Shown piece by piece: positions 1,042 to 31,085 of a DNA stretch of 31,406 nt. The stretch is from IMG/VR virus record IMGVR_UViG_3300046718_000718, positions 1-31,406 of that record. One strand, 5' to 3'. Position numbers and translations under genes: made by a program. The notes under the pieces were generated by a model. The model was not told where the DNA came from and made no database searches. It saw only the letters and a list, made by a program, of their open reading frames with translations. Source of the DNA: a virus. Every line of letters begins with the position of its first letter. Within the stretch, counting starts at the first letter, position 1.

Positions 1042-1062
1042 CTAGGTGAGATGGTGGGGGAA

Positions 1063-2244
1063 ATGGACAAGGAAGACGCTGCAGTCGCCAGGATGAAGCC
1101 TGTCGACGGCTGGTTCGCGGAGATCGAGGCCAGGGAGCTCTACCGTGCGACCATCGATGCGATCCGGAAGATTCCCGGCGGGGTCCTGATCGAGGTCGGA
1201 AGCTACAAGGGGCGCTCGACGGTCGTCCTAGCGTCCGCTGCCGTGGACTCCGGCGTCAAGACGACGCTCTTCGCGATCGACCCGCATCAGGGCGTTCTGA
1301 CGGACGGGATGCGGGTCAGTCCGACCTGGGACGAGTTCAACGCGAACATCAAAGCTTCGGGGGTAGCCTCTTCGATCGCAGCGATCAGGACCTCATCGTC
1401 GAACTATCAGACGAACGCGAAGGTCTCGGTCCTCTTTATCGATGGTCTGCACGACTTTGAGAGCGTCCTGATCGACTACAACAGCTACGGGAAGCTCGTC
1501 GAGCCCGGCGGCGTTGTCGCCTTCCACGACTACTCGAATCCTGAATTCCCAGGAGTGAAGAAGGTCGTCGACCTCATGGTCGCCCGCGGCGAACTCCTCC
1601 TGGTCCGCGTTCCGGACGGTAAGGACCCTCACGACACGCTCCTGATCGCCAGGAAGCGCGTCAAGCTCTCGATTATCATCCCGACCTGCGGTCGCCCGCG
1701 TCTGGAGCAGGCTCTGTACAGCATCCTGGAGAATGGGATCTCGAAGCGGGACGAAGTGATCGTGGTCGGCGACGGCCCGCAGCCGGTCGCTCGGGAGATC
1801 GTGAAGAAGTTCAATGGTGCTCTGCCGATTCGGTACTTCGAGCACGGTCCGACCAGGATGGTTGGGTCCGCACAGAGGAACTACGCGATTACCCATGCAC
1901 TCGGTACGCACCTTGCCTTCTTGGACGACGACGACGAGTACACCGACGGCGCCGTCGACTTCATCCGGAAGACCGTCGAGAAGAATCCGGAGCGGATTCA
2001 CGTCTTCAAGGAGCAGTCGCACGTCGCGCGGCATCCTTGGGGCGTCGTCTGGAAGGAGAGGATCATCCAGAGCGGGAACGTAGGGACCCAAGGGATCGTC
2101 GTCCCGAACGTCCACGGAAAGCTCGGGTCCTGGCCGAACAACGTCTGCTCGGACTACTATTTCCTGAGGGAGACGGTCAACCTTTACCCGGACAAAGACA
2201 ACGGAGTCGTCTGGGTCGATCACATCGTCGCCGGTCTTTACTGA
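1063..2244 (+). CDS. Fused SAM methyltransferase and GT2 glycosyltransferase
   Basis: About residues 1-195 form a class I SAM-dependent methyltransferase of the Methyltransf_24 type: LIEVGSYKGRSTVVLA (motif I), FAIDPH, VLFIDGLHDFESVLIDY and GGVVAFHDY. About residues 200-393 are a family 2 glycosyltransferase: KLSIIIPTCGRPRLEQAL, DEVIVVGDGPQP, and FLDDDDEYTDGA carrying the acidic nucleotide-sugar/metal site. The fusion suggests one protein that adds and methylates a sugar on a glycan or other polymer. It is followed by two more glycosyltransferases. An in-frame ATG at 1051 is an alternative start; 1063 was chosen because a purine-rich G stretch precedes it, but the choice is uncertain. Confidence 0.85.
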   Translation: MDKEDAAVARMKPVDGWFAEIEARELYRATIDAIRKIPGGVLIEVGSYKGRSTVVLASAAVDSGVKTTLFAIDPHQGVLTDGMRVSPTWDEFNANIKASGVASSIAAIRTSSSNYQTNAKVSVLFIDGLHDFESVLIDYNSYGKLVEPGGVVAFHDYSNPEFPGVKKVVDLMVARGELLLVRVPDGKDPHDTLLIARKRVKLSIIIPTCGRPRLEQALYSILENGISKRDEVIVVGDGPQPVAREIVKKFNGALPIRYFEHGPTRMVGSAQRNYAITHALGTHLAFLDDDDEYTDGAVDFIRKTVEKNPERIHVFKEQSHVARHPWGVVWKERIIQSGNVGTQGIVVPNVHGKLGSWPNNVCSDYYFLRETVNLYPDKDNGVVWVDHIVAGLY

Positions 2245-2266
2245 TTTTTTTTATAGAAGGGGAAAC

Positions 2267-2806
2267 ATGGACACGCCGACCGAAGAGCAGGAGCAGCTCA
2301 GTCTCGAAGCGCAGAGGCAGATCTCCAGGCTTCTGGACCACAACAGCGAGCTCGTGAAGGACTCGCACAGCCTCCAGTCGCTCGTCTCGACGAAGAACGC
2401 CGCGATCGTCCGACTTGAAGCCGAGAATCTCCGCCTCAAGATGACTCGGACCGACAAGGAGCTTTCGACGCAGGTCGACGCTCTTCGTACGGAGGTCGGC
2501 AAGAAGGACAAACTGCTGGTCGAGTACCAGAAGGTCATCGAGAACTACAAAGGGAATGAGATCATCATCCTTCGTCGCGCCGCTGTGGCCGAGCAGAAGG
2601 TTGCGACCGTCCAGGACACCATGACCAGGATCCAGAAGTCCAGGGACGCCTCGGCCGCAGAAGCCGACAAGAACGACAAGGCGCGTCTCGACGCTATTCG
2701 GGACATGGTTGCGGTCAGCGACCAGCTTCGAAAGGCGAACGAGCGGGCCGCTGCGCTGTCGAAGGAACTCGACGAGCTCAAGAAGAAGCAGCAGCCGAAG
2801 AAGTAG
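2267..2806 (+). CDS. Coiled-coil protein
   Basis: The 179-residue protein is almost entirely predicted helix with heptad-like spacing and many Glu, Lys, Arg, Leu and Ala residues (NAAIVRLEAENLRLKM, ALSKELDELKKKQQ). It ends in a basic KKKQQPKK tail. A long parallel coiled coil is likely, perhaps a scaffold or spacer, but no family was recognised. A GGGG-containing SD lies just before the ATG. It sits inside the glycosyltransferase block, where a structural partner for the glycan enzymes is conceivable but unproven. Confidence 0.7.
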   Translation: MDTPTEEQEQLSLEAQRQISRLLDHNSELVKDSHSLQSLVSTKNAAIVRLEAENLRLKMTRTDKELSTQVDALRTEVGKKDKLLVEYQKVIENYKGNEIIILRRAAVAEQKVATVQDTMTRIQKSRDASAAEADKNDKARLDAIRDMVAVSDQLRKANERAAALSKELDELKKKQQPKK

Positions 2807-2856
2807 CCTCCGGCGGGAGGTGGAGGGATGGGTGGTGACAGGGGAACGGGGAGGGT

Positions 2857-3078
2857 GTGCAGGTTCATGAAGTGCGACTCGGGATGCCCTACCGCGTCTG
2901 GGTCAACGGACGCGGCGGACGACACCTCTGCAGGTTCGTTCCCACGTCCAGGGTCTCACACACTCAGTGGGGCCCCGTCTTCATCGGACACTTGTATTTT
3001 CCGCCGTTCGACGGAAAATCAACTAGCTTTGTTCCGAGCCGGTTCTTCGCCGACGAGATGGGGCCATGGCCGACATGA
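2857..3078 (+). CDS. Hypothetical protein, 73 residues
   Basis: A GTG start at 2857 follows a G-rich SD at about 2848-2854. The product (MQVHEVRLGMPYRVWVNGRG...) is rich in aromatic residues and beta-like segments (WGPVFIGHLYFPPF) and looks like a real small beta protein. Its end overlaps the next gene by 13 bases. The overlapping +-strand frame starting at 2828 gives a low-complexity Ser/Thr/Gly product and is less credible. No family was recognised. Confidence 0.5.
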   Translation: MQVHEVRLGMPYRVWVNGRGGRHLCRFVPTSRVSHTQWGPVFIGHLYFPPFDGKSTSFVPSRFFADEMGPWPT

Positions 3079-3317
3079 CTAAGAAAGACTTCGTGAAGCG
3101 CTGGGCGAAGAAGGCGGCTGGCGGCGGCGCCGTCGAGACCTTCGAGAACGACGTCGAGCGCCTCGTCCGGACGATCGTCCTCGTTTCGACTTCGTCGATC
3201 GTGAATGGCCTCTTGACCGGCCTGGAGGAGTCTCCGAAGGATCAGAAGCGCTTCGTCGCCCTGGTCAACCAGATCTCTCCGGCCGTTGAGCAGGCTCTGC
3301 AGAAACTGTACGAGTGA
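3066..3317 (+). CDS. Hypothetical alpha-helical protein, 83 residues
   Basis: The protein starts MADMTKKDFVKRWAKK, followed by two amphipathic helices (VERLVRTIVLVSTSSIVNGL and VALVNQISPAVEQALQKLY). It has a basic N-terminus, no cysteines and no clear membrane segment. It lies directly upstream of a GT2 gene and resembles in size and layout the helical protein at 4917-5120 that follows the GT4 gene. Function unknown. Confidence 0.6.
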   Translation: MADMTKKDFVKRWAKKAAGGGAVETFENDVERLVRTIVLVSTSSIVNGLLTGLEESPKDQKRFVALVNQISPAVEQALQKLYE

Positions 3318-3324
3318 GGGGAAC

Positions 3325-3906
3325 ATGGCACTTCCAGTCCGCGTCGTAATCCCAACGATCAAGTCCAGGGAGAAGTTCCTTGAGACTCTCTGTCTGCCGA
3401 CCGTCATCAACAACGACCCGGCTGACATCGTCGTCGTCCGCGGAGACGGATCTGCTCCACAGAAGCGGAACCGCGGCGCGAGAGGAACTACCTGGAAGTA
3501 CCTCCTGTTCGTCGACGACGACTCGAGGCTTCTGCCGGGCTGCATCGCAGCGATGGTCGACATGATGGAGCTGACGGACGCCAGCTTCTGCTACTCCGAC
3601 TTCCAGATGCAGCCTCAGGGTGGCCGGTTCACCGCGGGCCGGTTCAACCCGGAGCGCCTACAGACCGGCAACTACATCGACACGACCAGCCTGATCCGCG
3701 CCGAGGCATTTCCTGGCTTCGACGAGAACATCCTCCGGTACCAGGACTGGGACCTCTGGCTGACGATCACGAAAAGCGGCGGACGTGGGGTGTACCTCGA
3801 AAAGCTTCTGTTCGAGAAGTGGAAGATCGACGTCGGGATCACGGAGTCCGTCACGGACAGCGACGCGCGTGGGGCGCTCGTTGCGAAGCACGGGATCCCG
3901 TCATGA
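3325..3906 (+). CDS. GT2-family glycosyltransferase (short)
   Basis: This 193-residue protein shows a compact GT-A fold signature: VRVVIPTIKSREKFL (nucleotide-binding start), YLLFVDDDSRLLPG (DxD metal/nucleotide-sugar motif) and the acceptor-side RYQDWDLWLTITKSGG. It is shorter than usual GT2 enzymes, with a shortened region between the first strand and DxD. The ATG at 3325 has GAGGGGAAC upstream; the in-frame extension to 3286 has no better start. Its stop overlaps the next ATG (ATGA at 3903-3906), so it is probably co-translated with the GT4 gene. It likely transfers a sugar onto a surface or virion glycan. Confidence 0.8.
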   Translation: MALPVRVVIPTIKSREKFLETLCLPTVINNDPADIVVVRGDGSAPQKRNRGARGTTWKYLLFVDDDSRLLPGCIAAMVDMMELTDASFCYSDFQMQPQGGRFTAGRFNPERLQTGNYIDTTSLIRAEAFPGFDENILRYQDWDLWLTITKSGGRGVYLEKLLFEKWKIDVGITESVTDSDARGALVAKHGIPS

Positions 3907-4904
3907 AGGTCCTCTACGTCCTGGCGCACTACCCACAGAACTCCGAGTCGTACGTCGATGCGGAAATGACCTACATGAGGAGCCAGGGCGTCCAGATCGA
4001 GGTCTGGTCGCCGACCTCCGGGTATGGGGATTCTCCGACTGTTCACGTCCACCGCCGGTCCTTGGCGGAAGCTCTCATCGGCTTCGCGCCGGACGTGATC
4101 CACATCCATCACCTGACGACGGCGACCTATTACCTGGACATCCTGCCGCGCGGCCGGGCGACCGTCCGAGCGCACTCGTTCGACTGGGACCTCGACCGCG
4201 CCAAGCAGGTCGTGAGTCACCCGTCCGTCCGGCGCGTGTTCGCTTTCCCGAACCTCGCGGCGACGGCGCCCGGTCTCGGTCTCGTCCCGCTGCCGGTGGC
4301 GTTCAACCAGGACCTCTACTACCGCGTTCCGAAGACGCGGTCCGTTGTCCGCGTGGCGGCAGGACTCCTGACGAAGCGCCTTGAGGACTTCCTGGTCGTC
4401 GGAAACGATATGCACCAGCACTACGCTAACGTGGAGTTCACGCTGGCGATCAACCTCGTAGTCGGGAAGGAGTCTCGGGTCTCCGACATGCTTGAGAAGA
4501 TCAACGCCTCGCTTGGCGGCCACGTCCGGATCCTGAAGAATCTCTCTAGAGCGTCTGTCTCAGAGCTGGTTCGTCAAGCCTCGGTCTACATGATGACCTG
4601 CGACGAGAAGTCCCATGCGTTCGGGATGCCGATCTCGATCGCCGAGGCGATGTCGTCCGGTGCGCTCGTCATCGCGCCGTCGAATGCTGTCGGTGTACAC
4701 GACTACATGGGCGACGCCGGGCTCTTCTACTCGTCGACACTCGAGGCGATGGCGATCATCGAGGTTGCTCTCGCCATGAACGACATCGAGCGTGACGCTG
4801 CCGCCGCTATCTCCAGACGGTGCGCCGAGCGCTTCCGGTCCGATGTCGTCCTGCCTCGGCTGCTCCAGGAGTGGGAGTCGATCCGTTCCGGGAAATCTAA
4901 CTGA
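3903..4904 (+). CDS. GT4-like (GT-B fold) glycosyltransferase
   Basis: The 333-residue protein begins MKVLYVLAHYPQNSESYVDAE, a typical GT-B N-terminal strand and loop, with DVIHIHH about 60 residues on. The C-terminal domain has VYMMTCDEKSHAFGMPISIA followed by EAMSSGALVIAP, the usual donor-binding helix of family 4 enzymes. In the EX7E motif the first Glu position appears as His (H-A-F-G...E), which could change catalysis or donor choice. The ATG overlaps the preceding TGA; longer in-frame starts (from 3819) lie inside the GT2 gene and are rejected. Confidence 0.8.
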   Translation: MKVLYVLAHYPQNSESYVDAEMTYMRSQGVQIEVWSPTSGYGDSPTVHVHRRSLAEALIGFAPDVIHIHHLTTATYYLDILPRGRATVRAHSFDWDLDRAKQVVSHPSVRRVFAFPNLAATAPGLGLVPLPVAFNQDLYYRVPKTRSVVRVAAGLLTKRLEDFLVVGNDMHQHYANVEFTLAINLVVGKESRVSDMLEKINASLGGHVRILKNLSRASVSELVRQASVYMMTCDEKSHAFGMPISIAEAMSSGALVIAPSNAVGVHDYMGDAGLFYSSTLEAMAIIEVALAMNDIERDAAAAISRRCAERFRSDVVLPRLLQEWESIRSGKSN

Positions 4905-5397: not shown

Positions 5398-5422
5398 TGG
5401 CACAAAAGAAGGATAGAGTGCC
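5398..5422 (+). repeat. Dispersed junction element, copy 1
   Basis: TGGCAC, 11 bases, then AGAGTGCC. With flanking bases the arms are GTGGCAC and GTGCCAC, a perfect 7-bp inverted repeat. It sits directly after a stop codon and 9 bases before the strong promoter at 5432. It is one of 14 copies with identical 25-bp geometry in this window. Confidence 0.8.
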
Positions 5423-7247: not shown

Positions 7248-7272
7248 TGGCACAATAATCGGGAAGAATGCC
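7248..7272 (+). repeat. Dispersed junction element, copy 2
   Basis: TGGCAC, 11 bases, then AGAATGCC. The element starts at the stop codon of the gene ending at 7247 and ends just before the ATG at 7273. The ATG inside AGAATGCC is not the start of that gene, which is in another frame. Confidence 0.75.
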
Positions 7273-7500
7273 ATGGATTCGAACAGCAGGAAGAAGGAAA
7301 TCGACGCGCAGCTTCGCGAGCTTTGCGCCGGAAAAAAGTGCCCACGGCACAAGCGGCTGACGGCGAAGTTCGGGATCCTGTGGGCGGATGGACGGGCCTT
7401 CACGTACGCCTGCAACAAGCCGTGCTATCTGAAGTGGAAGAAGAGCCAGGGAGAAATGGCCTGTGTCGTCCGGGTAGCTCCTGTTAACAGAGGGAAATAA
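7273..7500 (+). CDS. Cys-containing small protein, 75 residues
   Basis: It reads MDSNSRKKEIDAQLRELCAG, then KKCPRHKRL, then YACNKPCYLKWKKSQ. The four Cys and one His could form a zinc site. The TAA stop overlaps the ATG of thyX (TAATG), so it is probably translated together with it. Family not recognised. Confidence 0.6.
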   Translation: MDSNSRKKEIDAQLRELCAGKKCPRHKRLTAKFGILWADGRAFTYACNKPCYLKWKKSQGEMACVVRVAPVNRGK

Positions 7501-8276
7501 TGCGTAGAGTGAAGCCGAGCGTCTTCCTGGTCGGGCAGACCGAGCTCTGCAGGTCTGGGATGAGCGCCTACCTTAACCACATTGGCGCCAGCGACTGGCG
7601 GACGGACGCGAACACCGACGCCGAGACTCTGATGGAGTTCATGGGTCGCCTCTGCTACCGCAGCTGGAAGCCCGGCATGAACGCCAACGTGACGAAGGTT
7701 CGGGAGGGGAGCCAGAGCTACCTCTCCAACATCATCAAGGTGAAGCACGGCTCTGTCTTGGAGCACGCCGTCACGAGCTGGGTCTTCGCCGACGTCTCGC
7801 GCGTCTTCACGCACGAGCTCGTCCGGCACCGCGCCGGGGCCGCGTACAGCCAGGAGTCCCTCCGGTTCGTCCGGCTGACGGACCTGGGGCTCTGGCTGCC
7901 GCCGGAGGCCGAGTCGCAGCCCTGGCTCGTCGAGCTCTTCGAGAGGACCTTCAAGAACCTGGAGGAGCTGCAGAAGGAGATGGCGAAGCGGCTTGGCTTG
8001 GACGACGATGGCGTTCAGTTCAAGGAGAAGAAGGTCCTGACGTCGCTGATGCGTCGCGCGGCGCCGGACGGCCTCGCGACGACGATCGGCGCATCCTTCA
8101 ACTTCCGCGCCCTCCGGCACATCATCGAGATGCGGACGGCCGAGTCCGCGGAGACGGAGATCCGCGTCGTCTTCGACGACGTCGCCAAGATCTGCAAGTC
8201 GTACTGGCCGAACGTCTTCTCGGACTTCACGAAGAACGATAAGGGCGAATGGGTTACAGAGAACGGAAAGATCTAA
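7500..8276 (+). CDS. thyX: FAD-dependent thymidylate synthase
   Basis: The 258-residue protein is ThyX, which makes dTMP from dUMP using methylene-tetrahydrofolate, NAD(P)H and FAD. It has the THELVRHRAGAAYSQESLRF signature at residues 104-123 and the later FNFRALRHIIEMRTAESAE segment, where family members bind dUMP and FAD. The usual motif is RHRX7S; here Ser120 follows Arg111 by eight intervening residues. It heads a nucleotide-metabolism block with DUF3310 and MazG-like genes, as in many phages that boost DNA precursors. Length is normal. Confidence 0.95.
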   Translation: MRRVKPSVFLVGQTELCRSGMSAYLNHIGASDWRTDANTDAETLMEFMGRLCYRSWKPGMNANVTKVREGSQSYLSNIIKVKHGSVLEHAVTSWVFADVSRVFTHELVRHRAGAAYSQESLRFVRLTDLGLWLPPEAESQPWLVELFERTFKNLEELQKEMAKRLGLDDDGVQFKEKKVLTSLMRRAAPDGLATTIGASFNFRALRHIIEMRTAESAETEIRVVFDDVAKICKSYWPNVFSDFTKNDKGEWVTENGKI

Positions 8277-9151: not shown

Positions 9152-9552
9152 ACAAGCGCGAACACCTGCTGACCTGCCTCTCTGAGGAATGCGGCGAGAG
9201 CATCCAGGTCTCCGCGAAGGCGAACCGATTCGGGCTCGACCACATCTGGCCGGAGAAGGGCGAGTCGAACCGCAGGATCCTGGAGCGGGAGATTGCGGAC
9301 ATCTTGGGCGTAGCGCGTGAGCTCGGCCTCGTAATCCGCGAGGAGGACATCGAAGCGAAGCGGGAGAAGCTTCGGAAGATGATGACATTGTCGGCCTCGC
9401 TCGGAACCCTGAAGGATCCGGAGTTTCCGGACACTTACCTAGCGAATTGCGTTGAGTGCGGAAAGACGGAAATGGTTTGCTGCGACGACGGGTACAAGGC
9501 AAACCCAAGGTGCCGTCCGTGCTGTCACGGAAAAGTTCAGAAGGCACAGTAG
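9148..9552 (+). CDS. Second MazG-like protein with C-terminal zinc ribbon
   Basis: The 134-residue protein has LSEECGESIQVSAKANRFG (E14xxE17) and REIADILGVARELG (E48xxD51), an all-alpha NTP-PPase helix pair. A zinc ribbon follows at about residues 101-126, ANCVECGKTEMVCC then RCRPCCHGK. The ribbon is an unusual extension for this small family. Tandem MazG-like genes with ATGA overlap could give two substrate specificities or a mixed assembly. Confidence 0.75.
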   Translation: MNKREHLLTCLSEECGESIQVSAKANRFGLDHIWPEKGESNRRILEREIADILGVARELGLVIREEDIEAKREKLRKMMTLSASLGTLKDPEFPDTYLANCVECGKTEMVCCDDGYKANPRCRPCCHGKVQKAQ

Positions 9553-9566
9553 ACCTAAAGAGTGCC
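9542..9566 (+). repeat. Dispersed junction element, copy 3
   Basis: AGGCAC, 11 bases, then AGAGTGCC. It overlaps the stop region of the second MazG-like gene and lies 20 bases before the ATG at 9587. The AAGGAGG SD lies downstream of it. Confidence 0.75.
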
Positions 9567-11286: not shown

Positions 11287-11523
11287 ATGTCGATAGAAGA
11301 AGGCGGCGCCGCGTTCCCTGGTCCGTTCTCCGGTCACTGCGGGAAACCGGATCACATGGCTACGTGCGACTGCTACGTCGACAAGGGCATGACGCTGCGC
11401 GACTGGTTCGCCGGTCAGGCGATCGTTGGTGTGAAGTTCAGCGTGTCGCAGAACGAAGACGCCGTGGCGAAGGCAGCCTACCGTCGAGCGGACGCCATGA
11501 TCAAGGCCAGGACGGCACAGTAG
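11287..11523 (+). CDS. Conserved phage protein (GMTLRDWFAGQA family)
   Basis: The 78-residue protein contains GGAAFPGPFSGHCG, then GMTLRDWFAGQAIVG and AAYRRADAMIKAR. I recognise this arrangement (AFP ... GMTLRDxFA ... YxxADAM) as a widespread phage and prophage protein of unknown function. Here an extra CDCYVD insert precedes GMTL. AGGAGAATAGAAG supplies the SD. Its end overlaps junction element copy 4. Confidence 0.75.
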   Translation: MSIEEGGAAFPGPFSGHCGKPDHMATCDCYVDKGMTLRDWFAGQAIVGVKFSVSQNEDAVAKAAYRRADAMIKARTAQ

Positions 11524-11537
11524 CCGAATAGAGTGCC
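11513..11537 (+). repeat. Dispersed junction element, copy 4
   Basis: CGGCAC, 11 bases, then AGAGTGCC. It spans the stop codon of the gene ending at 11523 and lies 12 bases before the ATG at 11550. Confidence 0.75.
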
Positions 11538-11549
11538 AGGAGACGAGCT

Positions 11550-11810
11550 ATGACGCAGCCGATCGCCACCGAAGAAACGCTGATGCACCACGTCCGTACA
11601 GGAATCAATCAGATGGCATCCGCGGACTGGATCGCTCGCTACCTGGAAGCAAAGCACAAGAGAAAGCCTGGGTCGATGCACCTTGCCGTAAAGCTCTGCA
11701 TGAGGCGGCTGGAGGCGAAGGGGTTGATCGTCGTCCTTGGACCGAAGGACCAGTGGGACACGTACACGCTTTGTATTCCGCACGATCAGAAGGCACAGAA
11801 GGCAGATTGA
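11550..11810 (+). CDS. Possible winged-helix protein, 86 residues
   Basis: Helical N-terminal segments (TEETLMHHVRTGINQMASAD, then DWIARYLEAKHKRKPGSMHL) are followed by AVKLCMRRLEAKGLIVVLGP and a DTYTL strand. This is the order expected for a small winged helix: recognition helix, then a beta wing after KGLI. DNA binding is inferred, not proven. Its end overlaps element copy 5. Confidence 0.55.
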   Translation: MTQPIATEETLMHHVRTGINQMASADWIARYLEAKHKRKPGSMHLAVKLCMRRLEAKGLIVVLGPKDQWDTYTLCIPHDQKAQKAD

Positions 11811-11815
11811 GTGCC
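11791..11815 (+). repeat. Dispersed junction element, copy 5
   Basis: AGGCAC, 11 bases, then TGAGTGCC. It overlaps the stop of the upstream gene and lies 20 bases before the ATG at 11836. Confidence 0.7.
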
Positions 11816-11835: not shown

Positions 11836-12123
11836 ATGCGCGTAGGAACTAAGCTCTCTGTGAATTTCGAGGCGGTTCTCCATCTGACGGAACCGGAGAT
11901 CCGGGCGATGGACGCCCTGGTCGGCTACGGCTTCGAGCCGTTCATCAAAGTGTTCTACGAGAAACTCGGCCAGTCCTACATGCGGGACCACGAGGGCGGC
12001 CTTCGGACCTTCTTCGAGTCCATCGAGAAGCAGATCCGCCCGGAGCTGCACCGAATGGAAGAGGTCCAGAAGGTCCTGAAGATGGAGATGGCGAGTGGCG
12101 GGCAGTTGACAAAGATCGGTTAG
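11836..12123 (+). CDS. Hypothetical protein, 95 residues
   Basis: AAGGAGATAGCG gives the SD. The product starts MRVGTKLSVNFEAVLHLTEP, continues with EIRAMDALVGYGFEPFIKVF, and ends in a charged helix (RPELHRMEEVQKVLKMEM). The LTEPEIRALDAL...YG pattern resembles a phage protein family I have seen without a function. It has no cysteines. Confidence 0.6.
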   Translation: MRVGTKLSVNFEAVLHLTEPEIRAMDALVGYGFEPFIKVFYEKLGQSYMRDHEGGLRTFFESIEKQIRPELHRMEEVQKVLKMEMASGGQLTKIG

Positions 12124-12134
12124 GCACGAGTGCC
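12123..12134 (+). repeat. Contracted junction element
   Basis: GGCAC-GA-GTGCC has the same two arms as the 25-bp element with the spacer reduced to two bases. It follows directly on a stop codon and precedes AAGGAGGAAGCG and the ATG at 12147. It may be a collapsed or deleted copy. Confidence 0.4.
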
Positions 12135-12146
12135 AAGGAGGAAGCG

Positions 12147-12431
12147 ATGGGCAAGAAATTCGACGTTCTGAAGGAGTACCCGGCACCGTGGCATCTTGAG
12201 GGGCCGCACAAGCTCGACGGGATCTGCTGGGGAAGCGACATCGCGATCGTCGCCGCCAATGGGAAGTGCATCCTGACTCAGCACTCTCAGGATAGTGAGG
12301 GGCCGGGCATCGCTGAATATCTTGTGAGGTTGACGAACGAGAAGGCTGGTTTCTCGGATGCTCCGCTCCGACTGCCGAAGCACAAGCGACCGAAGGAGCG
12401 GATGCTGAAGTCCGCTGGCGGAATGATCTAG
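12147..12431 (+). CDS. Hypothetical protein, 94 residues
   Basis: It reads MGKKFDVLKEYPAPWHLEGP, then ICWGSDIAIVAANGKCILT and a basic KHKRPKERMLK end. The middle is beta-like (W..GSDI.IV.ANG), typical of small phage proteins with a YP.PW motif. AGGAGGAAGCG is a strong SD. It ends at element copy 6. Confidence 0.55.
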   Translation: MGKKFDVLKEYPAPWHLEGPHKLDGICWGSDIAIVAANGKCILTQHSQDSEGPGIAEYLVRLTNEKAGFSDAPLRLPKHKRPKERMLKSAGGMI

Positions 12432-12456
12432 TGGCACAGAAGAGGTAAAGAATGCC
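12432..12456 (+). repeat. Dispersed junction element, copy 6
   Basis: TGGCAC, AGAAGAGGTAA, then AGAATGCC. The spacer carries an AGAGG SD and the right arm contains the ATG (12452) of the next gene, so the element is itself the translation start region. Confidence 0.8.
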
Positions 12457-12655
12457 GCCTAAGATCGCGTTCTTCATGGCCCCGGAAACTTTCCCTTGCG
12501 GATGTCGCTTCACTCAGAGGTGCCCGTCCAGACCAAGGGCAAAGTCTCCGGACTACGTGCGGACGAAGGACGGCGCGGCGGTTTGCAAGTGCGGGACGAA
12601 GTGGCGCGTCCAGTGGACCTCGCTTGGGGATTACCAAGTGGCGAAAAAGAGGTAG
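12452..12655 (+). CDS. Small Cys-rich protein, 67 residues
   Basis: It starts MPPKIAFFMAPETFPCGCRF, continues with TQRCPSRPRAK and VCKCGTKWRVQW, and ends VAKKR. The five cysteines could form a zinc ribbon. Both its start (ATGCC) and its last codons lie in copies of the junction element, as in the neighbouring genes. Confidence 0.6.
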   Translation: MPPKIAFFMAPETFPCGCRFTQRCPSRPRAKSPDYVRTKDGAAVCKCGTKWRVQWTSLGDYQVAKKR

Positions 12656-12663
12656 AGAATGCC
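12639..12663 (+). repeat. Dispersed junction element, copy 7
   Basis: TGGCGA, AAAAGAGGTAG, then AGAATGCC. It encodes the last codons (VAKKR), the stop and SD, and ends on the ATG of the gene at 12659. Confidence 0.7.
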
Positions 12664-12826
12664 AAAGGTTCAATGCTCCATGTGCGACATGTCGAAGGCG
12701 ACGAAGCACAAGGTCCCCGCGTGCAAGCGTCCCGCGAAGCACTGGGTCAAGGACGGGACGTGGGGTCGCCTGTACCTTTGCGAGTACCACTGGCGAAGGT
12801 ATCCGACCGTGAGCAAGAAGAGGTAA
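12659..12826 (+). CDS. Small zinc-finger-like protein, 55 residues
   Basis: MPKVQCSMCDMSKATKHKVP carries CxxC. ACKRPAKHW and LYLCEYHWRRYP add Cys and His residues of a probable treble-clef zinc site. It ends VSKKR. Its start lies in element copy 7, and its end in a degenerate copy at 12809-12833 (GTGAGC, 11 bases, AGAATGCT) that holds the next ATG. Confidence 0.6.
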   Translation: MPKVQCSMCDMSKATKHKVPACKRPAKHWVKDGTWGRLYLCEYHWRRYPTVSKKR

Positions 12827-12828
12827 GA

Positions 12829-13191
12829 ATGCTGATCTTCCTAAAGCCTAAGCAGATCGCGTACTCCTGGCCCGCGGTCGACTCGATGAACATCGCCTTC
12901 TTCGAGAGCAAGGACTGCGATCTTGTTGTTCACGAATCGAACGTCCTAGAGGTCCAGGTGGACGTCCAGCAGGCAAAAGGCCTGATCCAGCAGCTCACGG
13001 AGTTTTGCATCCGGAAGGGCGCACTTCCGAATCCGGAGATCAATTACCAGCATTCCGCTAAGCACTGTCCATGCGAGTCCTGCGAATCTCATCGGCAGTG
13101 GTACTGCCCGACGTGCGACAGTCTTATGTCCTCTCCAGAGTCAACGCGGTGCGTGAACGGGCACGAGCGTAGGTTGGCACAGAAAAGGTGA
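12829..13191 (+). CDS. Hypothetical protein with C-terminal zinc ribbon, 120 residues
   Basis: The N-terminal 60 residues (MLIFLKPKQIAYSWPAVDSM ... VVHESNVLEVQVDV) are beta-rich. The C-terminus has KHCPCESCESH, YCPTCDSLM and RCVNGHERR, three Cys pairs plus His for one or two zinc ions. It ends LAQKR inside element copy 9. The long frame back to 12496 is a shadow of the upstream genes. Confidence 0.6.
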   Translation: MLIFLKPKQIAYSWPAVDSMNIAFFESKDCDLVVHESNVLEVQVDVQQAKGLIQQLTEFCIRKGALPNPEINYQHSAKHCPCESCESHRQWYCPTCDSLMSSPESTRCVNGHERRLAQKR

Positions 13192-13199
13192 AGAGTGCA
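13175..13199 (+). repeat. Dispersed junction element, copy 9
   Basis: TGGCAC, AGAAAAGGTGA, then AGAGTGCA. The right arm contains the GTG start of the gene at 13195, and the spacer carries its AAAGG SD. Confidence 0.7.
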
Positions 13200-13341
13200 T
13201 AGACACCACTGGTCAAAGCCGTTTCGCTGTTACGGTCGGACGATCAAGAATTGCCGATCGAGTTCCGGAGGGACTCTCCTTTGCTTCTGCATCCTGATGA
13301 AGGTTGGTCGCGGGAAAAAGGCTAAGTGGGTTCCGAGGTAA
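13195..13341 (+). CDS. Tiny basic Cys-containing protein, 48 residues
   Basis: The GTG start lies in the junction element. The product (HRHHWSKPFRCYGRTIKNCR ... LLCFCILMKVGRGKK) is basic with four cysteines and ends KWVPR. Its start and end patterns match its neighbours, the best evidence that this short frame is real. The following junction (13325-13349) keeps only the right arm, AGAATGCC. Confidence 0.45.
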   Translation: MHRHHWSKPFRCYGRTIKNCRSSSGGTLLCFCILMKVGRGKKAKWVPR

Positions 13342-13344
13342 AGA

Positions 13345-13572
13345 ATGCCCCTGTGGATGAAGGTCTGGAAGGTCGCCCGGCTGATCTTCATGGTCGGCCT
13401 GTTGGAATGGATGATCTGCCGTGGACTCTACGACTCCGCCAGGAAGGGCGACTGGTTCTGGGTCTTCGCCGCCGTGTTCGAGCTTCAGCTGTTCGCGGCG
13501 TACTTCGGCTGGATCATGATCGAGGACTTCAACACGTACCAGCGGCTGCGGCGGCAGGCGAGGAAGGGGTAA
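13345..13572 (+). CDS. Small membrane protein, 75 residues
   Basis: It starts MPLWMKVWKVARLIFMVGLL, a membrane helix. A second hydrophobic segment follows (FWVFAAVFELQLFAAYFGWI), then a basic cytoplasmic tail (RLRRQARKG). Two membrane helices are expected. Its start lies in the right arm of a junction element (ATGCC). Confidence 0.6.
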   Translation: MPLWMKVWKVARLIFMVGLLEWMICRGLYDSARKGDWFWVFAAVFELQLFAAYFGWIMIEDFNTYQRLRRQARKG

Positions 13573-13580
13573 AGGATGCC
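13556..13580 (+). repeat. Dispersed junction element, copy 11
   Basis: AGGCGA, 11 bases including GGGGTAA, then AGGATGCC holding the ATG at 13576. The left arm is diverged but the spacing is kept. Confidence 0.55.
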
Positions 13581-13764
13581 ATGTAAACCGACCTATCCAC
13601 TCGATCCGAACTCCACCTGGGGAAAGAAGTTCATCGAGCACGCAGACCAGCTTCAGTACATGGTCAACCAGATGGGGTACTGCAACGGCAGAGACAAGCG
13701 GGCGTTTTCCGCGCTGACCAAGGCGATCGAGCGAGTTCGTAAGGCTGTGGCACGGAAAGGCTGA
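13576..13764 (+). CDS. Hypothetical helical protein, 62 residues
   Basis: It reads MPCKPTYPLDPNSTWGKKFI, then YMVNQMGYCNGRDKRAFSAL and a basic helix ending VARKG. No family was recognised. It begins on ATGCC of a junction element and ends in another, like its neighbours. Confidence 0.55.
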   Translation: MPCKPTYPLDPNSTWGKKFIEHADQLQYMVNQMGYCNGRDKRAFSALTKAIERVRKAVARKG

Positions 13765-13772
13765 AGAATGAC
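13748..13772 (+). repeat. Dispersed junction element, copy 12
   Basis: TGGCAC, GGAAAGGCTGA, then AGAATGAC. The ATG in the right arm opens only a 7-codon frame (MTYGKGD). The next true gene starts at 13795 behind its own AAAGGAG SD, so the arm is conserved without being a useful start here. Confidence 0.65.
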
Positions 13773-15769: not shown

Positions 15770-15959
15770 GAAGACCCATGAGGAGTACATGGCGGTGGCA
15801 AAGGTGCTCGGGCGACATCTCTCTATTGAACTGGCTTCGTCGGATCCGATAACTCAGTGCGCGAACCTTGCGATCCACTTCCTCTCGGACGTTCCTCGCT
15901 GTCCGCTGTGCCTGGACCGTATCGTGAAGGCCGCGGCGGCTGGCACATTAGGAAAATAG
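15756..15959 (+). CDS. Hypothetical protein, 67 residues
   Basis: It is helical (KTHEEYMAVAKVLGRHLSIE, then ANLAIHFLSDVPRCPLCLDR) with a CPLC pair and a C-terminal AAAAGTLGK. It overlaps the upstream gene and ends inside element copy 13. No family was recognised. Confidence 0.5.
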   Translation: MHKPKKTHEEYMAVAKVLGRHLSIELASSDPITQCANLAIHFLSDVPRCPLCLDRIVKAAAAGTLGK

Positions 15960-15965
15960 AGTGCC
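15941..15965 (+). repeat. Dispersed junction element, copy 13
   Basis: TGGCAC, 11 bases, then AGAGTGCC, spanning the stop at 15957-15959. The GTG in the right arm opens only three codons; the next gene starts at ATG 15969. Confidence 0.75.
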
Positions 15966-16521: not shown

Positions 16522-17739
16522 GTGCCTAGCAAAAAAGGTGGACCTTACAGCGAGAAGCTGGCACACTATCTGGCTGAATCGGAGAGGGTAAAAGTGAGAG
16601 AGAATCCCGGCGACGTGATCGAGAAGACCTTCGAGAACCGAACGGTCGGCATCGAGAAGCTCGACGACGTCGAGCTGGAGCTCCACGCGGAGCCGAAGCC
16701 CGGCGAAGTATTCATCATGGCCCGCCAGAAGGGCAAGATGGTCGAGGTCGATGCCTTCGATCAGTGGGACGGCGATCCGTATGTCCTCTTCTCCGAGCCG
16801 ATCGAAGTTCCGGTCGGCGGGAAACCCTGCCTCACGAACGGAGCGCCGTTCTTCACCGCGAACCGGAAGATGGCCTCGATCTCCTTCGGGATCCCGGCGG
16901 GCCCCGTTGAGTCCGTCCACGGCGCCTGCCCAGCCTCGGCGCTTCCGGACAGCTACGAGAAGCACTACGGCCTCGGCGACGTCGACCAGCGGCCGATGAA
17001 GTACGAGGAGCAGATCTGCAGGAAGTGCTACGCCAACAAGGGCAACTTCATGTACGAGCTGCAGCAGATGTACCAGACGGCCCGCTTCCGCTGGCTGAAA
17101 GAGCAGCTGAAGACCGGCACGTCGGCCGAGCGGCTGGCCGACATCCTCACAGCGTGCGTTCGGACCGCCTCCCAGAACAAGAAGAAGCGTGCGTCGGAAG
17201 GCGAGAGCCCTGACTTCGTCCGGATCCACGACTCGGGCGATCTCTTCGACCTGCGCTACTGGCGTGCCTGGAAGCTCGTCTGCGAGAACCTGCCGCACCT
17301 GCAGTTCTGGTGCCCGACTCGGATGTGGATGCTGCCGGTGTACACGGCGGAGTTCCAGAAGGGCGTGCCCGAGAACCTCGCGCTTCGCCCGTCGGCCTAC
17401 CACTTCAACGAGAGCGCTCCCGTGATCCCGGGTATGGCCCACGGCTCCACGTCTAACTACTGGGAGACGAAGAAGGGCGGCCTGAAGATCGACCCGATCA
17501 AGGCCGACATCGCCGACTGGCCCTGCCCCGCGTACGTCGAAGTCGAGGGCGAGCGCGGAACCTCCTGCTCCGGCGCCCTGGAGCGTGTCGGGAAGGTCTG
17601 GGAAGGCCGCAACCGCGAGGCGCTCGACCAGCTTCTCAGTACGATGAGCGCGAGCGAGAAGCGAATCACGAACAACTGCAAGGACTGCCGGGTCTGCTGG
17701 CTCCGTGACGACATGAGGGTGAGCTACACGGCTCACTGA
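16522..17739 (+). CDS. GP88-family phage protein
   Basis: The 405-residue protein matches the phage gene product 88 family. Marks are SFGIPAGPVE and CPASA (Cys136), ICRKCYANKGNFMYE (Cys166, Cys169), DFVRIHDSGDLFDLRYW, and a C-terminal NNCKDCRVCWLRD. The grouped cysteines could hold an iron-sulfur cluster or zinc, and the HDSGD segment is the most conserved. Biochemical role unknown. The start is the GTG in AGAGTGCC at 16522, just after the methyltransferase stop; no strong SD is visible, which is odd for a long gene. Confidence 0.8.
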   Translation: MPSKKGGPYSEKLAHYLAESERVKVRENPGDVIEKTFENRTVGIEKLDDVELELHAEPKPGEVFIMARQKGKMVEVDAFDQWDGDPYVLFSEPIEVPVGGKPCLTNGAPFFTANRKMASISFGIPAGPVESVHGACPASALPDSYEKHYGLGDVDQRPMKYEEQICRKCYANKGNFMYELQQMYQTARFRWLKEQLKTGTSAERLADILTACVRTASQNKKKRASEGESPDFVRIHDSGDLFDLRYWRAWKLVCENLPHLQFWCPTRMWMLPVYTAEFQKGVPENLALRPSAYHFNESAPVIPGMAHGSTSNYWETKKGGLKIDPIKADIADWPCPAYVEVEGERGTSCSGALERVGKVWEGRNREALDQLLSTMSASEKRITNNCKDCRVCWLRDDMRVSYTAH

Positions 17740-18335: not shown

Positions 18336-19133
18336 ATGAAGAAGAAGAAGGAGAAGGTAGTCCTGAACAAGGACTACTGCGTCAAGGCCGTTTGCCATGT
18401 TTGCTCTCGCGAATTTCTCGCGAGGTACAATATGGGCGATCGCGCCAAGACCTGCACGTCGAAGGATCACATCTGCGAGCGCAAGACGATCAAGATCCCC
18501 GGGCGCCGGGACAAGCTGATCACCTGCGTCGAGAAGTGCTGCCGGAGCCAGTACTACAAGGGCAGTGCAGGGGCGATGGTGACGTCGGCGATCGACTCCA
18601 GGAAGTTCCTGAACAACATCGAGTACACGAAGACGATCCAGGAGAGTCACAAGCTCGAGAACCCGTACGGGATCGCCATCAGGTTCACGCTCGAGACCGG
18701 CTGCCGCTGCGGGGAGACGCTGCTCGTGCGGAAGCGGCACCTGGAGCTCCGGACAGGCCCGCTCTCCACGATCCGGATGCCGACCCTGAAGAAGGCCGGG
18801 CACCCGGAGCTGCCGGTCGACCTCGACAACAGCGGGAAGTTCGCGAAGGAGCTGATGACCTGGATCAAGCGGATGAAGCCGGACGACCTGCTCTTCCCGA
18901 TCGCCAAGAGGACCTTCCAGCGGTCCTTCGAGCGGATCCTGGACAAGGTGAAGCCGGACCGCTCGAGCCTCGTCCACATCATGCGGCACACCCGAGCGTC
19001 GCGCCTGATCGCCGCGGGGTTCGACTTCAACTACGTCCGCAAGCAGCTCCGGTGGAGCTCGATCGAGCTGGCGAAGATCTACGTCCACACTGAAGAGGAG
19101 AAGGTCGTCGGGTTGATGGAGAGGCTTCGGTAA
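18336..19133 (+). CDS. int: Tyrosine recombinase (phage integrase)
   Basis: The 265-residue protein carries the tyrosine-recombinase catalytic set: Arg124 in TGCRCGETLL, His214-x-x-Arg217-His218 in HIMRHTRASRL, Trp240 in the second His/Trp position (QLRWSS) and Tyr249 nucleophile (AKIYVH). The N-terminal 75 residues hold a Cys/His cluster (CHVC, DHICERK, CVEKCC), an atypical zinc-bound arm/core-binding region. It catalyses site-specific strand exchange between phage and host DNA, implying lysogeny. AAGGA at 18324-18328 is the SD. The TAA overlaps the next ATG (TAATG). Confidence 0.9.
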   Translation: MKKKKEKVVLNKDYCVKAVCHVCSREFLARYNMGDRAKTCTSKDHICERKTIKIPGRRDKLITCVEKCCRSQYYKGSAGAMVTSAIDSRKFLNNIEYTKTIQESHKLENPYGIAIRFTLETGCRCGETLLVRKRHLELRTGPLSTIRMPTLKKAGHPELPVDLDNSGKFAKELMTWIKRMKPDDLLFPIAKRTFQRSFERILDKVKPDRSSLVHIMRHTRASRLIAAGFDFNYVRKQLRWSSIELAKIYVHTEEEKVVGLMERLR

Positions 19134-19514: not shown

Positions 19515-19539
19515 TGGCACTCTAGTACAATTCAATGCC
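19515..19539. repeat. Dispersed junction element, bidirectional copy
   Basis: TGGCACTCTA on the left and TCAATGCC on the right. Read on the minus strand it is GGCAT-N12-AGAGTGCCA, so the strong arm faces left here. A TACAAT box lies inside at 19526-19531. It fills the intergenic gap after the integrase unit. Confidence 0.65.
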
Positions 19540-21510: not shown

Positions 21511-21803
21511 ACGTTTCTCGGTGTGCCCTTTCCTTCCCAGGACTGGGGGCGCACCACACCCCTCCCTAGCGGGGGGAGGTCCGGCCAGTAGTACCCTATC
21601 CCGGACCTCCCCCGGCGCCCGTCGCGGGCCCCGGAACCCCGGTCTGGAGGCCGGAAAAGGCCTTCCGCGGGGTCCTGCGCCCCAGGGGGCGGCCGGTAGG
21701 GGGCACGTCCTGCGAACGGCGGGATAGGAGAGCCCAAGCCCCTGCGGAGGGGCTTTGGACCCGCCCGTGCCCCCGACCGGCGCCCCCTGGGGATCCCCTC
21801 CCT
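21511..21803. other. GC-rich gene-free segment with dense inverted repeats
   Basis: No convincing gene lies here. Perfect 13-base arms GGGGGAGGTCCGG (21572-21584) and CCGGACCTCCCCC (21601-21613) flank a 16-base loop. GCCCG-TCG-CGGGC is at 21617-21629. A longer inverted repeat joins 21680-21707 with 21766-21792 (one extra G, one mismatch) around a loop containing the AAGCCCCT hairpin. CCCAGGACTGGG is at 21536-21547. The segment could be a structured RNA on either strand, a terminator cluster, or an origin or packaging region. Confidence 0.6.
21736..21755. terminator. Hairpin, possible bidirectional terminator
   Basis: AAGCCCCT-GCGG-AGGGGCTT is a perfect 8-bp stem with a 4-base loop. Only a short T run follows (CTTTGG on plus; the minus side has CTTGGG), so intrinsic termination would be moderate. 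It sits in the loop of a larger inverted repeat (21680-21792). Confidence 0.5.
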
Positions 21804-21828
21804 GGGCACTCTATGGTTATTCTGTGCC
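21804..21828 (-). repeat. Dispersed junction element, minus-strand copy
   Basis: On the minus strand it reads TGGCAC, 11 bases, AGAGTGCC, the exact consensus, facing the GC-rich segment rather than the SprT-like gene. This suggests that the element controls, or marks the edge of, something in 21511-21803. Confidence 0.75.
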
Positions 21829-21843
21829 AAATGCGGTATTTAT

Positions 21844-21871
21844 TTGACATCATACCTAGGTATGATATCAT
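21844..21871 (+). promoter_or_regulatory. Promoter with overlapping palindromic operators
   Basis: TTGACA (21844-21849), 16 bases, TATCAT (21866-21871). The spacer contains a perfect 18-base palindrome ATCATACCTAGGTATGAT (21849-21866), and a second one, ATGATATCAT (21862-21871), overlaps the -10 box. A dimeric repressor could switch the downstream SprT-like gene set. The design parallels the promoter at 5432. Confidence 0.75.
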
Positions 21872-21897
21872 AGATACAGTTGATGGAGGATCTGACC

Positions 21898-22476
21898 ATG
21901 AGCAAGGCAACCCAGGTGAACCGCGAGGCGTGGCTCCGCGCGGCGTATTCCCTCCTGCGGAAGGAGCTGATCAAGGAGTGCCCGGCCCAGGTGGCGCTCT
22001 CCTGGAGCTTCCCGGCCAAGGGCGGCACGTCGGCGAACCGGCGCCGCATCGGGGAGTGTCACTACAAGGGCGCGTCCGCTGGAGGCGCCGTCGAGGGCGA
22101 CTGCGTCGTCCTGATCTCGCCGACCCTCCGGGAGCCCGCCCAGATCGTCGAGACCCTGCTCCACGAGATGGTCCACGTCGCGCTCCCCATGGGTACCGGT
22201 CACCGGAAGCAGTTCTCCCGCCTCGCGGCCCGGGTCGGCCTCGTCAAGCCCTGGACGGCGACCAAGGCCTCCCCGGAGCTCGCCAAGCGGATCGAGGGGT
22301 TCCTGAAGAAGCTGCCCGCGTGGCCCGGCGGCTACCTGGAGATCCACACGACCCAGAAGAACCGCCAGCTGAAGGCGGTCTGCTCCTGCGACCGGATCAT
22401 CCGCGGATCGCTCAAGCTGTTCGGCGACGGGCCGATCATCTGCGGGCTCTGTGAATGCACCTTCGAGCTGGCGTAG
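21898..22476 (+). CDS. SprT-like zinc metallopeptidase-family protein
   Basis: The 192-residue protein has LLHEMVHVALPMGTGHRKQF, with His89-Glu90-His93 as zinc and catalytic ligands and the GH of the SprT family (GHR..F). A C-terminal Cys region (VCSCDRIIRG, then ICGLCECTF) fits the zinc ribbon common to SprT/Spartan proteins. Such proteases cut DNA-bound or DNA-crosslinked proteins; phage copies are uncharacterised. GGAGGA at 21885-21890 sets the ATG at 21898. It is the first gene behind the double-palindrome promoter. Confidence 0.8.
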   Translation: MSKATQVNREAWLRAAYSLLRKELIKECPAQVALSWSFPAKGGTSANRRRIGECHYKGASAGGAVEGDCVVLISPTLREPAQIVETLLHEMVHVALPMGTGHRKQFSRLAARVGLVKPWTATKASPELAKRIEGFLKKLPAWPGGYLEIHTTQKNRQLKAVCSCDRIIRGSLKLFGDGPIICGLCECTFELA

Positions 22477-29408: not shown

Positions 29409-29438
29409 AGTATAGCCTAGTGGCACTCTAACAGACAA
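29409..29438 (-). promoter_or_regulatory. Putative promoter of the sigma gene
   Basis: On the minus strand TTGTCT (29438-29433), 18 bases, TATACT (29414-29409). The spacer contains the strong arm AGAGTGCCACT of a junction element, so a bound protein would cover the promoter. Transcription would begin at about 29402-29401, on the ATG. Confidence 0.5.
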
Positions 29439-29445
29439 CTGTGCC
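29421..29445 (-). repeat. Dispersed junction element, minus-strand copy at sigma gene
   Basis: The minus strand reads TGGCAC, 11 bases, AGAGTGCC. With flanks it shares CCTAGTGGCACTCT (plus strand, 29416-29429) exactly with the copy at 31056-31069. Confidence 0.8.
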
Positions 29446-31046: not shown

Positions 31047-31075
31047 ATTGTACTCCCTAGTGGCACTCTTGCTAA
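31047..31075 (-). promoter_or_regulatory. Putative promoter of the winged-helix gene
   Basis: On the minus strand TTAGCA (31075-31070), 17 bases, TACAAT (31052-31047, 5 of 6 matches). The spacer again contains AGAGTGCCACTAGG. The leader would be only about 11 bases. Confidence 0.5.
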
Positions 31076-31085
31076 CTAGAATGCC
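31061..31085. repeat. Dispersed junction element, bidirectional copy
   Basis: TGGCAC, 11 bases, AGAATGCC on plus. On minus it is GGCAT, 12 bases, AGAGTGCCA. It overlaps the end of the HELGH-protein gene and the promoter of the winged-helix gene. Confidence 0.75.

Follow-up and report, generated by a model that had tools for sequence, protein, structure and literature searches.

The window, by which we mean the whole 31,406-nucleotide stretch (positions 1 to 31,406 of IMG/VR virus record IMGVR_UViG_3300046718_000718), contains between 12432 and 13772 a run of small, tightly packed genes whose boundaries share a repeated junction (Table 1). The original prediction described this junction as one module that joins six interchangeable gene cassettes and encodes the end of one gene together with the start of the next. 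The repeat is real at all seven listed places, although only the D, E, and F copies are whole, those at 12640, ~12811, 13335, and 13557 having damaged or missing arms. As predicted, most copies supply a stop codon, an SD-like GAGGT or AAGGTG, and the next ATGCC or GTGC start, and the genes after the junctions start MP, ML, or MH in most cases. The gene tails, by stop position, are VAKKR (12655), VSKKR (12826), LAQKR (13191), WVPR (13341), ARKG (13572), and VARKG (13764); thus, two of the tails expected were found, but VAQKR is not the tail of the gene before 12432, which ends in ...GGMI at a TAG stop (12429-12431). No Pfam family was matched by the 67-amino-acid cassette gene. Elsewhere in the window, a ThyX thymidylate synthase (7500-8276) and a methyltransferase/glycosyltransferase fusion with another glycosyltransferase (1051-4904) are encoded.

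Table 1. Elements, cassette genes, and the candidate recombinase gene in the window
Feature	Position	Strand	Core	Remarks
Element beyond array	5399..5422	+	GAAGGA	
Element	7249..7272	+	ATCGGG	In G013 too, next before A
Slot A element	9543..9566	+	GACCTA	8/8 phages
Slot B element	11514..11537	+	GCCGAA	7/8 phages, deleted in G002
Slot C element	11792..11815	+	GGCAGA	8/8 phages
GGCACGAGTGCC	12123..12134	+		Core missing between the arms; a probable collapsed element, or chance
Slot D element (junction 12432-12456)	12433..12456	+	GAGGTA	8/8 phages; whole copy; reference junction of the original prediction
Cassette gene, 67 aa	12452..12655	+		Start inside D; Cys-rich; tail VAKKR
D-like copy (junction 12639-12663)	12640..12663	+	GAGGTA	Left arm damaged (GGCGAAAAA)
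Cassette gene, 55 aa	12659..12826	+		Tail VSKKR
D-like copy (~12811)	12811..12834	+	GAGGTA	Left arm degenerate, right arm one base short
Cassette gene, 120 aa	12829..13191	+		Tail LAQKR, inside E
Slot E element (junction 13175-13199)	13176..13199	+	AAGGTG	8/8 phages; whole copy
D-type element, right half only	13335..13349	+		
Degenerate D-like element (junction 13556-13580)	13557..13580	+	GGGGTA	
Slot F element (junction 13748-13772)	13749..13772	+	AGGCTG	5 phages; whole copy
Element	15942..15965	+	GGAAAA	
Tyrosine recombinase, 265 aa	18336..19133	+		Candidate enzyme for the elements; Cys/His-rich N-terminus
Element	19516..19539	+	GTACAA	3' of recombinase gene region
Element	21805..21828	-	TAACCA	
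Element	29422..29445	-	GTCTGT	Upstream of minus-strand ORF
Element	31062..31085	-	GTTAGC	Upstream of minus-strand ORF

The repeat extends well beyond the six-gene run, with another 10 copies elsewhere in the window (Table 1). It is a 24-bp imperfect dyad in which 9-bp arms, GGCACWSWA, flank a 6-bp core, and two weaker outer positions beyond each arm stretch the dyad to an 11-6-11 layout. Pooling of 154 half-sites yielded strong arms of the form GGCA(C/T)(A/T)(C/G)(A/T)A around a 6-bp center without common sequence. Inverted arms of this kind (9 strong positions and two weak outer ones) around an overlap of 6 to 8 bp, here 6 bp, are the layout of a core-type recombination site. A palindromic-arm search recovered 13 copies in the window, on both strands, at gene boundaries and mostly intergenic; several sit upstream of genes, and elements were also found inside tight operons. 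No match to the full 25-mer of the junction was expected from shuffled sequences, and an arms-only model detected 73 sites in 183 kb (the window phage and six relatives) compared with 0.2 in order-2 Markov shuffles. The original prediction would have failed if the tails were conserved for protein function, which is not so, the same element being read in different frames, or left unread, by the genes ending there. Genes end within ~25 bp of each element at differing offsets and frames, so that their common MP starts and KKR-like tails are incidental products of the D element, with its built-in stop, SD, and start.

Relatives were sought in 2.9 million IMG/VR contigs by flanking protein, element patterns, and recombinase. 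Seven carrying the array were found, making eight contigs of uncultured phages with the array when the window phage is counted: G001 (IMGVR_UViG_3300050821_010673), G002 (3300045391_003935), G004 (3300006163_000013), G013 (3300050821_005575), G014 (3300031962_000003), G015 (3300020579_000012), and G016 (3300047509_000270), the last found only via its recombinase. A ninth, 13-kb contig, G017 (3300045391_006826), has the recombinase and one element ~60 bp upstream of the recombinase gene. Across the IMG/VR collection, the pattern of element C matched only these seven array-bearing relatives. Contigs with single-pattern matches (G003 and G005 to G012) had no PF00589 protein and were regarded as chance matches or as unrelated. 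Among the matches listed for genome contigs, the hits were single and scattered over unrelated taxa, looking like chance, and no host was found among them. Among 50,697 phage records, neither blastn with the 11.5-14.5 kb region nor tblastn with the recombinase and with two large proteins of G013 gave a match. The virus group was not placed, because terminase PF03237 was not found and most of its large proteins had no PHROGs or Pfam family. A GP88-family gene (window 16522-17739) follows F in G000, G001, and G004, follows E in G016, and precedes A in G013, and on this gene order it is a backbone gene relocated relative to the array.

Two other features were observed near the element at 21805. 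A noncoding region of ~290 nt (21512-21800) is predicted to be very strongly structured as RNA (z -4.7, both halves) and is partly matched at the DNA level in G001, G002, and G004; it had no Rfam match and is a candidate undescribed phage RNA. Just upstream of an SprT-like gene, a sigma-70-like promoter (TTGACA...TATCAT) overlaps the perfect palindrome ATCATACCTAGGTATGAT (21840-21900), an arrangement that looks like a repressor operator.

Comparison of the eight array contigs revealed that the elements occur in the same order, A-B-C-D-E, in all of them, with F also present in five and B deleted in G002. All array sites from A to F have the same orientation in every genome. Each of the 38 sites in the A-E intervals had the core of its own slot, and no near-miss cores were seen, although the arms-only scan was blind to the core. 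Across slots A to E, none of 30 core columns varied compared with 27 of 90 arm columns (Fisher P=2e-4; the columns are not fully independent, as the genomes are related and the arm model was trained on instances that include the array sites). Over 100 slot pairs, with the close pair G002/G004 excluded, position-wise identity between genomes at the same slot was 1.00 for cores, 0.92 and 0.88 for the arms, and 0.24-0.26, no better than chance, for the flanks; between different slots, cores were only 0.39 alike and arms 0.82. Outside the array, cores drift by one base. Thus, the single interchangeable module originally proposed does not hold: each junction has a slot-fixed core, the slot order is fixed, the DNA dyad also lies outside genes, and a linked recombinase probably acts on it.

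No genome had two intact sites sharing one core. D was the only array core with extra copies (six genomes), every one of which has one damaged or missing arm (window 12640, ~12811, 13335, and 13557; L045:10080; L048; L213; L215; L231:9134). Duplicate D cores with a broken arm are expected if intact direct repeats get deleted. D may be where new cassettes enter the array; alternatively, the right half of D may be reused as a stop-SD-start coupler.

The cassette idea itself was borne out, since across the eight related contigs the elements are common and the intervening genes unrelated. In blastn comparisons between genomes, almost only the elements match within the array, as islands of 24-32 bp, and blastp detected no homologous genes in the same slot from A to E except in the close pair G002/G004. 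Exchange among the eight phages was therefore not seen directly, same-slot cassettes being homologous only in that pair. To the left of A, G002 and G004 are 97.5% identical, and their homology breaks off precisely where A ends on the right and again just past the right edge of C. G002 lacks B and retains a remnant of its left arm. In this pair, three of the five points at which homology breaks off are no more than 3 bp from an element (P=0.001); the right breakpoint of the C-to-F difference lies away from any element. The expectation that breakpoints between relatives would fall at the element was thus borne out in the close pair, but some other relocated genes lack an element at one end. The only clear cassette shift concerned a gene with 58% identity that occupies slot D-E of G015 and slot A-B of G016, element to element, and so crosses different cores (D slot and A slot); this gene had no other relatives in IMG/VR.

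Exactly one PF00589 protein is encoded by each array phage (E 5.5e-14 for the window protein), and the same orthologue occurs in all eight array contigs, with 61-75% identity among the array phages, and in the ninth contig. All nine recombinase contigs carry at least one element, a co-occurrence that lies within one virus group and is not phylogenetically independent. More distant homologues were not found in IMG/VR contigs. The catalytic residues R124, E127, K152/153, H214, R217, W240, and Y249 are invariant in seven orthologues (7/7 kept), and the enzyme is apparently catalytically complete as judged from its residues. For the modeled catalytic domain, the nearest fold is XerH bound to difH (Foldseek top match, E 3e-6), with Z 15.7 and 3.8 A rmsd over 171 aligned residues; XerA gave Z 15.4, these values referring to a predicted model whose pLDDT is only 62 as a whole and whose N-terminus has no confident model. 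The fold search gave nothing useful on this low-confidence N-terminal domain. The domain (window 18336-18580) is Cys/His rich, with invariant C20, C23, C40, H45, C47, C64, C68, and C69, and occupies the place of the core-binding domain in related enzymes.

The direct observations are elements with slot-specific invariant cores in a fixed order, cassettes that are unrelated, a single close pair with breakpoints at elements, and recombinase co-occurrence, and it is probable that the elements are heterospecific sites at which the phage-encoded Xer-like tyrosine recombinase exchanges cassettes slot by slot. Tyrosine recombinases exchange strands across an overlap between two binding arms, and efficient exchange requires matching overlaps. 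Here, two inverted recombinase-binding arms would flank a 6-bp overlap, the candidate recombinase would bind and cut the elements, and strand exchange would be located in the core. Since the overlap differs at each genomic site, the enzyme could not bring about efficient deletion or inversion within the phage genome itself. Co-infecting relatives would carry identical overlaps at corresponding slots, and recombination at two neighboring slots would therefore swap the gene or genes between those slots, presumably during co-infection itself; invariant slot cores amid freely drifting arms are predicted by this need for matching overlaps. In tightly packed genes, the element also serves as stop codon, SD, and start codon. 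We give an even chance to the fuller proposal of an addressable slot array, in which at least five heterospecific sites in fixed order, with private 6-bp addresses and a dedicated recombinase, let co-infecting relatives swap single genes without genome scrambling. The same recombinase could instead serve lysogeny or dimer resolution only.

The strongest rival is that the elements are repeated operators, at which the recombinase-fold protein or another regulator controls transcription and gene turnover is unrelated. MrpR of SPbeta, a repressor that has lost catalytic residues (keeping 3/7) and binds SPBRE repeats across SPbeta, is a precedent for a tyrosine-recombinase fold acting at intergenic repeats (PMC10516654), and dyads that recur on both strands where genes meet, several of them upstream of genes, are consistent with such a role. 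It is nevertheless unlikely, given that an operator has no need of an invariant 6-bp center peculiar to each slot, that all seven catalytic residues are kept here, and that elements sit inside tight operons. Rather unlikely, too, is the view that the elements are boundary sequences, kept for translation coupling or regulation, whose homology serves ordinary homologous recombination. T4 PeSL cassettes and lambdoid boundary sequences are reportedly precedents for such homology-based gene swapping, and short matching islands amid unrelated sequence are what this view would expect; it gives no reason for cores conserved above arms, for dyad arms, or for the single intact copy per core.

A signal at the RNA or translational level (hairpin, terminator, or stop-SD-start coupler) seems very improbable, even though the D and E cores hold SD-like sequences and stop codons and D right halves recur as couplers without a left arm. 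The inner arms are not self-complementary, with positions 6 and 7 paired in just 2% and 9% of the array copies, RNA folding is weak (z -1.8 to +0.3), and the elements have no Rfam match, by which hairpins and terminators are largely refuted. The A, B, and C cores are invariant yet without an SD, and the stops lie in different frames.

Among known systems, the closest in working are the pdif/dif modules of Acinetobacter, in which 11-6-11 inverted arms with variable 6-bp spacers, acted on by XerC/XerD, border small gene modules (PMC13141974). There, sites with matching 6-bp spacers recombine, and individual modules are substituted between plasmids or replicons that agree in both their left and their right spacers (PMC13141974). 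The phage elements differ in arm sequence (GGCACWSWA versus pdif arms such as ATTTCGTATAA and TTATGTTAAAT; PMC13141974, Table 1), in having a single phage-encoded candidate recombinase rather than host XerCD, in the common orientation of sites A to F versus alternating C/D modules, in slot cores and order that are fixed across genomes, and in one-gene slots with start and stop codons inside the site. XerH/difH shares the nearest fold and the use of one recombinase on an imperfect dyad; unlike it, the phages have many sites with different cores per genome and a Cys/His-rich N-terminus, and the elements are not, as far as known, a chromosome dimer resolution site. Integrons and phage CALINs likewise combine a tyrosine recombinase with arrays of small-gene cassettes in phages (PMC9892861), whereas the 154 half-sites here read GGCACWSWA rather than GTTRRRY/RYYYAAC, form no attC-like hairpin, and have their own core per slot. 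The integron integrase model TIGR02249 (integrase_gron) scored 25.8 and 28.6 bits against a cutoff of 265. The array would work like pdif modules but is neither a dif module, by arm sequence and orientation, nor an integron, by site and integrase.

MrpR/SPBRE resembles the array in pairing a recombinase-fold phage protein with repeated intergenic elements (PMC10516654) and differs from its slot-specific cores and complete catalytic set. The SAS/ESAS of cluster K mycobacteriophages are repeated start-associated sequences with inverted repeats adjoining genes of different families (PMC3203893); their 13-bp GGGATAGGAGCCC at start codons is unrelated to the present element, the ESAS spacer is of variable length, and no slot-specific core was reported (PMC3203893). 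In manner of working, the array would also resemble the incompatible lox or FRT sites used for cassette exchange in the laboratory. No such phage array was described in the open-access literature searched, a scope outside which most subscription papers lie.

Phage mosaicism is usually ascribed to illegitimate or homologous recombination without dedicated machinery. If the proposed mechanism is true, these phages would possess a built-in system for accessory-gene exchange, consisting of a recombinase and ordered, separately addressed sites, which would account for the turnover of small genes between fixed borders and would provide a natural series of sites that are served by one enzyme yet incompatible with one another.
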